Shown: positions 39-19,645 of the stretch, in pieces
How positions within the stretch are numbered: the stretch's first letter is position 1
How the letters are laid out: each line of letters begins with the position of its first letter
Source: a virus
Length of the DNA stretch: 20,915 bases
Reading direction: 5' to 3' (one strand)
Virus record (IMG/VR): IMGVR_UViG_3300009184_000268
Span: 1 to 20,915 of that record
The notes under the pieces: model-generated
Told to the model about the DNA's origin: nothing
Databases searched by the model: none
The model's input: only the letters and a program-made list of their open reading frames with translations
Made by a program: the position numbers and the translations under genes

Positions 39-219
39 CTTCTTCATCTTCCTTTAACATTTTGTTAATGAGATCGAGGGTTTCCTGCAATCCCAAGTTT
101 GTGCCGACCGTGCGTTGGTACGTCTCCCATGACGCGACATTTCCAGCCGCTAAGGAAGAAGCTATATTAGCTTGACGCGCCTTAATTGCGCCGATCAGAT
201 CACCCAAATTGAATATCAT
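28..219 (-). CDS. Small phage protein downstream of portal, unknown function
   Basis: A 63-residue acidic-tailed protein. It is mostly predicted helix: an N-terminal stretch with hydrophobic spacing (MIFNLGDLIGAIKARQANIA), a middle rich in small residues, and an EDEEDER end. Its ATG shares one base with the stop of the upstream 51-residue gene (TAATG), so translation is probably coupled, and its end overlaps the next start. It has no signal peptide or membrane segment. Position in the head-gene block suggests a role in morphogenesis, but I do not recognise a family. Confidence 0.75.
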   Translation of the reverse strand: MIFNLGDLIGAIKARQANIASSLAAGNVASWETYQRTVGTNLGLQETLDLINKMLKEDEEDER

Positions 220-14512: not shown

Positions 14513-14980
14513 TTAAGCGTCGTCGAGCATGAGTTGGTTACGGGAGATAGCGTCGTATTTGGCGATGCGCTGTCCTTCTTCATCAATCTCGTTAATTTGA
14601 TTGCGAATGGCGCTCAAACGACGACCAGCGCAGGCACAAGGCTCATAGCTGAGAACTACGCCATTGTTGTAGGCGGCATGGTATTCTTTTTTCAGGGCGC
14701 GGTAAGCGGTTTCTGCTTTGTCCTCGAGGGCGCACAGCTCGTCCATGGTGAGCTTTTGCAAAGGGTAGCTTGACTGATTGGCAACGCGCAGGATGCCAGT
14801 GTGACCAGTGCCCTTCAAGAACTTGACCATGTCAGCAAGCAAAGCCTGCTTGGAGTCAGCGTAGAACTCGATGGGAGTGTTTTGCAACTCAACAACATTG
14901 GTGTTAATGAAGATGCCTTCGATTTCACCAGTGAAACAACGGTCGTCTTGGTAGACGTAAGCTTTGTAAATTTTTGCCAT
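14513..14980 (-). CDS. Hypothetical protein, 155 residues, with its own promoter and terminator
   Basis: Start at 14980 (MAKIYKAYVYQDDRCFTGEI), chosen because AAGGAA lies 7 nt upstream; a start 5 codons earlier would contain that site. The N-terminal 75 residues look beta-rich (YKAYVYQDD, GEIEGIFINTNVVEL, IEFYADS). The remainder is helical, with a CACAG cluster near 117-121. It is a one-gene transcription unit between promoter A and the hairpin at 14494. The strong, specially built promoter suggests it is made in quantity or early. I do not recognise the family. Confidence 0.78.
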   Translation of the reverse strand: MAKIYKAYVYQDDRCFTGEIEGIFINTNVVELQNTPIEFYADSKQALLADMVKFLKGTGHTGILRVANQSSYPLQKLTMDELCALEDKAETAYRALKKEYHAAYNNGVVLSYEPCACAGRRLSAIRNQINEIDEEGQRIAKYDAISRNQLMLDDA

Positions 14981-15000
14981 TTTGATTTCCTTCAAGTAAC

Positions 15001-15049
15001 CGCCTGATTGGCGTGAATGAATTGTAACACTAAATTAAAACGGGTTGGG
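15001..15049 (-). promoter_or_regulatory. Promoter A with 5'-terminal hairpin leader
   Basis: Minus strand: extended -10 TGT-TACAAT (hexamer 15026-15021), then 7 nt (TCATTCA), then the hairpin CGCC-AATCA-GGCG (15013-15001), GGTTAC and AAGGAA before the ATG at 14980. Transcription should start at or next to the first base of the hairpin. An imperfect inverted repeat (TTAAT-N5-GTTAC, 15038-15024) overlaps the -10. Upstream CCCAACCCG matches promoter B. There is no good -35 box. Confidence 0.68.
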
Positions 15050-15069
15050 GTAGGTGCTTTCCCTACCCC
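15047..15069 (-). terminator. Terminator-like hairpin after the 130-residue gene
   Basis: A perfect 8-bp stem (GGGGTAGG / CCTACCCC) with a 7-nt loop lies 5 nt after the stop at 15075. On the minus strand it is followed by AACCCGTTTT, and on the plus strand by TTGTTTTAT, so it could act in either direction. It slightly overlaps the upstream edge of promoter A. Confidence 0.55.
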
Positions 15070-15074
15070 TTGTT

Positions 15075-15467
15075 TTATACCTTTGCCCAGTATCCGTAGA
15101 CCATCTTGTGTGATGGGTTACCAATGTCGTTTGGTACACCGTCAATGACAGCCACCAAGTGATGCGCCTGCCTTGCAATCACTACGCCCTTTGGCATATC
15201 TGCGCAACGTGCCTTGCGTCCCTCAAACTTTGGGGCTGACATCCAAACCCAACCATGCTGTTGTAAGAAGGGGATATAAACCTTTTTGCTAAGACCATTA
15301 CGAGCAGATTTTTCGTTGCCGTAATCTTTGTTAGCTTGAGCCAATAGTTTGTAAGTGGCTTTGTAGTCAAGGTTCATTGCAATGCAGATTGATCGAACTA
15401 CGCAGTCACCTGCTTTACCTTTAAAGCCAGCCGCCGAGCGGCCTCCGTCGTTGTATTGATAGGTCAT
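15075..15467 (-). CDS. Small phage protein, papain/C39-like fold suspected
   Basis: 130 residues. It resembles a phage family beginning Y-x-Y-N-D-G-G-R-x-x-A-G-F-K-G-x-x-G-D-C-V. I see a Cys at the start of a helix (GDCVVRSICIAM, C22), a later QAHHLVAVIDG (H102/H103 before a strand) and ND at 113-114. This Cys-His-Asp/Asn order fits papain-like or bacteriocin-peptidase-like folds. The activity is inference; annotations I remember are mostly hypothetical. AAGGAGA precedes the ATG, and the gene follows the 104-residue gene by 11 nt, so both are transcribed from promoter B. Confidence 0.8.
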   Translation of the reverse strand: MTYQYNDGGRSAAGFKGKAGDCVVRSICIAMNLDYKATYKLLAQANKDYGNEKSARNGLSKKVYIPFLQQHGWVWMSAPKFEGRKARCADMPKGVVIARQAHHLVAVIDGVPNDIGNPSHKMVYGYWAKV

Positions 15468-15478
15468 TGTCGTTCTCC

Positions 15479-15793
15479 TTACTTAGCTGGAGAAACGCGG
15501 ATGTCAGCACGACCTTCTTTGCGGAAGGTAGCCAAGACGTCGTCGGTGATGCCGTAGGACACGCAAAGCTTTTTGTAGTCAACGGTGCCAGAGACTTCGA
15601 TGAGCTTGACAGACACGCTGTGCAGTTCGCCCTTGTGCTCGCCTTCGCCGTACTTGTTGGCTATGGCTTCTTTCATTGCCTTGACTTGCTCAGCCAATGC
15701 TTTGGCTTGTTGGTCGAGCACGTAGAGTGCGTCGATGTCAGAAGTGATTGTGGAGATCAGAGCTTCTGTCTGGATCAATGTTGCTGTAGTCAT
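15479..15793 (-). CDS. Hypothetical protein, 104 residues, first gene of promoter B unit
   Basis: The N-terminal two-thirds is helical, with coiled-coil spacing (LDQQAKALAEQVKAMKEAIANKYG). A compact C-terminal part follows (HSVSVKLIEVSGTVDYKKL, then DDVLATFRKEGRADIRVSPAK). The helix-plus-small-beta layout is reminiscent of phage proteins linked to recombination or nuclease modulation, but I cannot name a family. It is transcribed from promoter B, with the 130-residue gene 11 nt downstream. Confidence 0.78.
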   Translation of the reverse strand: MTTATLIQTEALISTITSDIDALYVLDQQAKALAEQVKAMKEAIANKYGEGEHKGELHSVSVKLIEVSGTVDYKKLCVSYGITDDVLATFRKEGRADIRVSPAK

Positions 15794-15814
15794 GATGTTT
15801 GTCTTTCAGGTAAC

Positions 15815-15886
15815 CTGCTTATTGCAGTGAATGCATCTTAACATCAAGTTAAAGCGGTTTGGGAATCTTTTTATAAATATTTTTAC
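15815..15886 (-). promoter_or_regulatory. Promoter B with 5'-terminal hairpin leader and AT-rich upstream element
   Basis: Minus strand: extended -10 TGT-TAAGAT (hexamer 15840-15835), 7 nt (GCATTCA), hairpin CTGC-AATAA-GCAG (15827-15815), then GGTTACCTGAAAG before the ATG at 15793. A perfect inverted repeat TTAAC-N5-GTTAA (15852-15838) overlaps the -10. CCCAAACCG upstream matches promoter A. An A/T tract (15866-15886) falls at about -40 to -60, the usual place of an UP element. Confidence 0.7.
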
Positions 15887-19083: not shown

Positions 19084-19287
19084 TTACACGAAGAATAAAT
19101 CTGGGCGCAAGTCTTTTCTTGTGACCAGTCCTTGTGTAGCTTTTTCAATCTTGACCGCCAATGCGGCAGACGCCGTTCTGCGCTCGTGAATCAACAGAGA
19201 CATCCACGTCAAGCTGATGCCCAGATACTCTGCCATCTCACCTCTTGCGCCCAACGGCTCCGTCGAAAAATACTCTTGCAATTTCAT
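19084..19287 (-). CDS. Cro/YdaS-like transcriptional regulator
   Basis: Start at 19287 (MKLQEYFSTEPLGARGEMAE), with AAGGAA about 8 nt upstream; the in-frame extension to 19350 crosses the promoter and is rejected. The 67 residues contain a helix-turn-helix: GARGEMAEYLGISLTWMSLLIHERR (13-37), then ALAVKIEKATQGLVTRKDLRPDLFF. The IEKAT-x-G-x-VTR-x-DLRPD ending is characteristic of the YdaS/Cro family of small phage regulators. It probably binds operators in the divergent region 19288-19426 to control its own promoter and the rightward operon. First gene of the leftward series. Confidence 0.88.
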   Translation of the reverse strand: MKLQEYFSTEPLGARGEMAEYLGISLTWMSLLIHERRTASAALAVKIEKATQGLVTRKDLRPDLFFV

Positions 19288-19308: not shown

Positions 19309-19337
19309 AGTATACATTAACTTTAAATTAAAGATAA
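19309..19337 (-). promoter_or_regulatory. Promoter/operator D of the Cro-like gene
   Basis: A 21-bp dyad with one mismatched pair (19317-19337, core CTTTAA-A-TTAAAG) sits just upstream of a TATACT -10 (minus strand, 19314-19309). It contains TTAAC-TTTAA-ATTAA, the same inverted repeat found at promoters A, B and C. This is a likely autoregulatory operator. There is no leader hairpin at this promoter. Confidence 0.6.
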
Positions 19338-19361: not shown

Positions 19362-19411
19362 TTGTGTTTGTTTTTAACTGCGTGTTAGAATGCTTGCACG
19401 TCGATACGACG
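19362..19411 (+). promoter_or_regulatory. Rightward promoter C with 5'-terminal hairpin leader
   Basis: Extended -10 TGT-TAGAAT (hexamer 19386-19391), 7 nt (GCTTGCA), hairpin CGTCG-ATA-CGACG (19399-19411), then GGTTAAGGAG and the ATG at 19427. The inverted repeat TTAAC-N5-GTTAG (19374-19388) overlaps the -10. TTGTGT at 19362-19367 is a weak -35. The layout and spacings match promoters A and B, although this promoter faces the other way. Confidence 0.7.
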
Positions 19412-19426
19412 GTTAAGGAGAATCAA

Positions 19427-19645
19427 ATGGATAAACATCTTCCCTACACGACCAAGTCTGGTCTTCAAATTGGGTGCAACTACACCCCTCCCCTACGCAA
19501 CTACATGAGTGCTGATGCAGAGCTTCTGCAAATGGCGCTACTCAACATCGAACCTGAGTTTTCTCAGCGCCGCATTGCTGGCTGGGTTGCCTATTTCCTC
19601 TTTCTCATTGCGCTGTACACCGCATTAGTTGTGTGGGAGGTTTGA
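19427..19645 (+). CDS. Small single-pass membrane protein, first gene of rightward operon
   Basis: 72 residues: a polar front (MDKHLPYTTKSGLQIGCNYT, then PPLRNYMSADAELLQMALL) and one hydrophobic segment near the C-terminus (IAGWVAYFLFLIALYTALVVW, about 50-70), so it is probably anchored in the inner membrane with a cytoplasmic N-terminus. AAGGAG lies 6 nt before the ATG. The SG-L-x-IG-x-x-Y-x-PP segment is familiar from small early phage proteins without known function. Expression is from promoter C. Confidence 0.8.
   Translation: MDKHLPYTTKSGLQIGCNYTPPLRNYMSADAELLQMALLNIEPEFSQRRIAGWVAYFLFLIALYTALVVWEV

Follow-up and report, generated by a model that had tools for sequence, protein, structure and literature searches.

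Sequence comparison among relatives indicates that a short hairpin placed directly after the -10 box of phage promoters is not there by chance. A sequence-only reading had described duplicated leftward promoters with such hairpins in a single virus record. The observation is confirmed and is larger than first described, with a third copy in the same record and family-wide occurrence among its relatives. The hairpin, predicted to lie at the 5' end of the mRNA, probably shields the front end of the phage message from decay.

The window comprises the whole of a virus record of 20,915 bases. Near-identical DNA was not found in phage records, and an Rfam scan of the window gave no match at the gathering threshold. 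By its terminase the window belongs to a large phage group, mostly metagenomic and taken to be mainly freshwater. Among named relatives, the uncultured siphovirus MW202545 from Manatee Spring is the nearest, its terminase being 64% identical. The features on which the analysis rests are given below; each predicted +1 is the seventh base past the -10 box and is further suggested by a coupling seen in relatives.

15049-15001, minus strand: promoter copy A
15021..15039, minus strand: core of promoter A, TTTAATTTAGTGTTACAAT, in which the operator-like TTTAAT-N5-GTTA overlaps the extended -10 element TGTTACAAT
15014, minus strand: predicted +1 (A) of transcript A
15001..15013, minus strand: hairpin A, CGCC-AATCA-GGCG
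14988..14993, minus strand: Shine-Dalgarno-like GAAGGA for the gene after promoter A
14513..14980, minus strand: first gene after promoter A, 155 aa, without family match
15863-15815, minus strand: promoter copy B
15835..15853, minus strand: core of promoter B, TTTAACTTGATGTTAAGAT, in which a perfect TTAAC-N5-GTTAA palindrome overlaps the extended -10 element
15828, minus strand: predicted +1 (A) of transcript B
15815..15827, minus strand: hairpin B, CTGC-AATAA-GCAG
15479..15793, minus strand: first gene after promoter B, 104 aa, with a weak phrog_5860 match
19373-19429, plus strand: third, rightward copy C (match scored at 19363)
19373..19391, plus strand: core of promoter C, TTTAACTGCGTGTTAGAAT
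19398, plus strand: predicted +1 (A) of transcript C
19399..19411, plus strand: hairpin C, CGTCG-ATA-CGACG
19427..19645, plus strand: first gene after promoter C
19084..19287, minus strand: YdaS/Cro-like repressor gene (PF15943, E 1.4e-12; phrog_35, transcriptional repressor)
19309..19332, minus strand: leftward repressor promoter with the same operator-like sequence, TTTAATTTAAAGTTAA, and the -10 box TATACT, without a hairpin

Copies A and B lie where they had been reported, both on the minus strand, and are identical at 47 of 62 positions (76%), the identity running through the hairpin and the following GGTTAC-x-TGAA. Copy C is the next-best place in the window (28/47), background places reaching at most 24. 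The -10 boxes are TACAAT, TAAGAT, and TAGAAT in A, B, and C, and each stem begins 7 nt after the last -10 base. Predicted leaders measure 29-35 nt, with about 3 to 7 nt between hairpin and Shine-Dalgarno sequence. Promoters B and A precede small genes of a long leftward unit leading to terminase and portal, and promoter C, divergent from the repressor gene, heads a rightward unit. The stems are short, and whole-leader folds are predicted at -5 to -7.3 kcal/mol. Taken singly, a leader is unremarkable (z about -1 to -1.65), and the case for the hairpin therefore rests on comparison across relatives.

The palindrome that overlaps the -10 box, TTTAAC-N5-GTTAA, lies upstream of the hairpin. The earlier reading had overlooked this palindrome, its connection with the YdaS/Cro-like repressor, and the lack of a hairpin at the promoter of the repressor gene. 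The product of the neighbouring gene belongs to the YdaS family of DNA-binding proteins by its PF15943 score (47.6 bits, cut-off 30), and we infer that this repressor binds the palindrome. In MW202545, whose repressor is 61% identical, both operator halves have changed, to TCTAAC and GTTAGA. A tyrosine integrase was not found in 13 near-full relatives, so the repressor may serve either lysogeny or timing. In three loci (L109, L121, and L136) structured repeats (GTTGGTG...CACCAAC, GGGGACT...AGTCCCC) form a long array in the repressor leader, after the promoter and ahead of the YdaS start; ARAGORN recognized no tRNA and Rfam no family in these arrays. An operator-like TTTAACATTTTGTTAA is also present inside the coding region at the record end (window 53-71, plus strand) and recurs in L084, L089, L093, L098, and L102, where it may reflect coding conservation or a further repressor site.

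Promoters were surveyed in 341 loci of relatives together with the window, gathered through terminase and repressor proteins and including near-full genomes. There is overlap among some of these loci; elements that were identical or nearly so entered the count a single time. The criteria for a promoter were the operator, the -10 box, a Shine-Dalgarno sequence, and a reading frame, and the hairpin was ignored. A hairpin was nevertheless present at offset 7 or 8 after the -10 box in 116 of 147 nonredundant promoters, the repressor's own promoter excluded, as compared with a mean of 4.4 and a maximum of 10 in shuffled sequence, in which kinship is ignored. Offset 7 accounts for 90 sites and offset 8 for 26, with at most five sites at any other offset. 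At the repressor gene's own matching promoter the hairpin was found in none of 15 cases. Another operator-bearing promoter class without hairpin recurs, at L083 5672 (-) in MW202545 and in equivalents in L188, L193, L208, and L338; the gene that follows it in MW202545 has a 2OG-Fe(II) oxygenase annotation. No such element was seen in the 25 kb examined of the 62 kb of Caulobacter phage GB2A, or in short stretches of SfV, BgVeeders33, and PseuP_224.

Across relatives the element has a constant order. The palindrome TTTAAY-N5-GTTA over the extended -10 is followed by 6 or 7 bases, a purine (mostly A), and a hairpin whose stem has 4-6 bp and whose outer pair is almost always C-G. Then comes a short stretch, often GTTTA or GTTAC, before the Shine-Dalgarno sequence and the start codon. 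The second loop base is A in 49 of 59 hairpins of 14 nt, and TTA-like bases 3' of the stem are frequent. These preferences hint at recognition, since a plain shield needs no conserved loop. A pseudoknot between loop and GUU was considered and dropped, as GUU is missing from several leaders. In the branch of MW202545-like phages (L208, L204, L197, and L188), the rightward leaders add a second stem-loop, GTCC-N-GGAC, after the 5' hairpin.

The survey made blind to the hairpin shows without circularity that the pairing exists, and the comparison of stems shows its variety. A set of 116 distinct hairpins includes 24 different 4-bp stems, all of them paired, so that stem bases change together with pairing kept in the relatives as had been noticed for A and B; unpaired stems among relatives would have spoken against the earlier reading, and the stems stay paired through changes on both sides. 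For 17 different stems of equal length, rows selected because they pair, the covariation score is 1.018 against 0.230 +- 0.059 in shuffles that ignore kinship, and it does not exceed 0.294 when the alignment is slid. Double-change cells number 23, against 5.4 in shuffles, and all four pairs vary on both sides. Among the outer four pairs, wobbles read G.U on the mRNA strand in six hairpins and A.C in none, a single A.C entry being an artefact of the register; the fifth pair of one hairpin, in L221, is C.A. Switches of the flanking ends between A-G and G-T, as well as switches of stem type, recur in separate branches.

These patterns bear on two explanations that would make an RNA structure unnecessary. 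Promoter-adjacent palindromes are often operators, as the one overlapping the -10 box here appears to be, and the downstream inverted repeat might likewise be a second DNA operator for a dimeric protein. This is improbable: its half-sites differ among promoters of one genome (in the window, CGCC, CTGC, and CGTCG), whereas the neighbouring operator halves do not, and the exceptions in the outer four pairs, six to none, are G.U on the mRNA strand. Because stems differ within a genome while operator halves stay alike, and the halves of MW202545 change together, the inverted repeat downstream has the character of RNA and the palindrome over the -10 box that of a DNA operator. The similarity of A and B would also fit recent duplication of A, B, and C with the hairpin as an incidental passenger, but 24 different paired stems, and an offset that is fixed across lineages with repressors only about 60% identical, refute this idea for practical purposes.

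The base preceding the stem is A or G, lies 7 or 8 bases past the -10 box, and is usually preceded by C or T. By the usual spacing the A before the stem would be +1, so that the stem would begin at +2. The earlier reading was thus right about the spacing of 7 nt, and its placing of the start at the first base of the hairpin is to be shifted by one base. The bases before and after the stem are coupled, A-G occurring in 130 cases, A-T in 17, G-T in 25, and other combinations in 3, and the mutual information between the predicted +1 and the base after the stem is 0.327 (null 0.009). One step outward, between -1 and the second base after the stem, there is no coupling (0.025, null 0.035). Predicted position 2 is C in 173 of 175. 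The coupling extends to the predicted +1 and not beyond, which makes the structure end at the expected start of transcription; a start further upstream would leave this limit without an evident reason. From the pyrimidine-purine step at -1/+1, the -10 spacing, and the limit of coupling, the stem is predicted to lie within one or two bases of the 5' end. Transcription is accordingly inferred to begin at the purine just before the stem, and the fixed offset from the -10 box and the end of the coupling favour the earlier proposal of a hairpin at the very 5' end of the mRNA.

Promoters for a phage RNA polymerase or a phage sigma factor were considered and rejected, as neither protein was found. 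A PF00940 search that did detect the enzyme in T7, the control, gave no T7-type single-subunit RNA polymerase in 10 relatives, and no sigma factor was found; the host enzyme is therefore expected to transcribe these genes. A terminase scan of genomes matched only one betaproteobacterial MAG contig. One locus (L226, 12291-12408, plus strand) has an Rfam match to the Betaproteobacteria-1 RNA (RF02932, 102.3 bits), which is a hint of betaproteobacterial hosts. Another (L230, 10236-10312, plus strand) has a match to int-alpA RNA (RF02996), barely above threshold, near the YdaS-like gene.

The element may be a host-sigma70 promoter that has an extended -10 (TGnTAnnnT) and an overlapping operator for the YdaS/Cro-like repressor and is followed by a short hairpin, which would form mRNA nucleotides +2 to about +14 and give an end resistant to RppH and RNase E. 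To this full reading, drawn from sequence patterns, we give an even chance. Phage mRNAs would start with no more than a single unpaired base. For RppH, two unpaired 5' bases are required and three are better, and a purine at position 2 is favoured (PMC7144940); through RppH and RNase E, structure at the 5' end is known to have a stabilizing effect on bacterial mRNA (PMC3997798). Given the scarcity of unpaired bases and the C at position 2, protection of the triphosphate end is the first choice; mRNA protection and protein binding were the two functions that the earlier reading had tentatively offered. The almost fully paired end would be a poor substrate for RppH and for 5'-end-dependent RNase E, and phage mRNAs would keep the protected triphosphate and last longer. 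The repressor mRNA, which lacks the hairpin, would decay normally. Against this reading weigh the short predicted stems, the frequent bases in the loop and 3' flank, and the recurring class of operator-bearing promoters without hairpin.

Other roles for an RNA hairpin have been weighed against this protection. The hairpin might be recognized in the nascent RNA by a protein of phage or host, or by RNA polymerase itself, and act in antitermination or timing like nut/boxB or the put sites of HK022. As would be expected of nut or put sites, it marks rightward and leftward operons and spares the repressor, and in HK022 putL follows closely on PL (PMC9378689). Also in favour of a protein or antitermination role are the partial conservation of the loop and of the bases 3' of the stem, and the additional stem-loop in MW202545-type rightward leaders. 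An antitermination site, however, has no need to begin at +2, the stem sequence varies freely even among promoters of one genome, and put consists of about 70 nt with two long stem-loops whereas A, B, and C each have one 13-nt hairpin; we consider such a role conceivable but not probable. Rather unlikely is an action in initiation or translation, by promoting escape or by keeping a short leader open and the ribosome-binding site free. The hairpin does lie within the first 15 transcribed bases and close to the Shine-Dalgarno sequence in A, B, and C, and folding predicts no pairing 3' of the stem in the leaders of B and C. Yet the repressor and other short-leader promoters manage without it, and such a role leaves unexplained a coupling that includes +1 and stops there.

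Two phage systems associated with hairpins offer a first comparison. The T7 gene 10 leader is a phage mRNA starting with a stem-loop; it is a single leader under a T7 RNA polymerase promoter, whereas the promoters described here are of host type and carry a repressor operator. In the N4 virion RNA polymerase promoters the hairpin precedes the start, forms in single-stranded DNA, and requires a giant phage polymerase, whereas the stem here follows the -10 box and the predicted +1 and would be transcribed. The E. coli ompA and papA leaders likewise begin with a stem-loop, which should hamper the access of RppH and RNase E (PMC3997798). These are individual host leaders, while the present module is repeated at several promoters per genome and kept family-wide, its stabilizing effect being predicted. 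The stem variants, the covariation, and the blind survey indicate that selection maintains the pairing, as expected of 5'-terminal stem-loop stabilizers. HK022 putL and putR are, as here, RNA structures of early leaders, with putL directly downstream of PL, and they act on RNA polymerase (PMC9378689); the single hairpin here is also found at mid-genome promoters, and no put-like structure of about 70 nt with two stem-loops is present in A, B, or C.

The SAS/ESAS elements of cluster K mycobacteriophages are also dispersed repeats with inverted repeats before phage genes, and ESAS consists of 17-bp inverted repeats upstream of the 13-bp start-associated sequence GGGATAGGAGCCC (PMC3203893). Their authors found little support for RNA hairpins, as departures break the pairing (PMC3203893), whereas departures here keep it; at A, B, and C the arms are of 4-6 bp and a GGGATAGGAGCCC-type sequence is absent. 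In the YdaS/Cro switch of CP-933P a YdaS-family repressor acts on palindromes at divergent promoters, as is proposed here, with a half-site consensus that differs from the present operator; a 5' hairpin is not described in the available part of that report (PMC8630535). A literature search of partial coverage did not find the same promoter-hairpin element.

Stabilizing 5' stem-loops are known from single leaders, and here a phage family seems to build one into its promoters. More tentatively, and with only a modest chance of being right, the 5' purine, the hairpin closed by C-G, and the following G or U may form a recognized RNA 5'-end signature, a structural cap parting lytic from repressor and host mRNAs. 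If so, phage messages would be kept while host mRNA is degraded, or would be bound by a dedicated phage protein. The limit of the coupling suggests a way to read a transcription start from sequence, and the dozens of natural stem variants constitute a ready-made mutational series. Whether phage mRNAs are protected by structure at their first base becomes testable.
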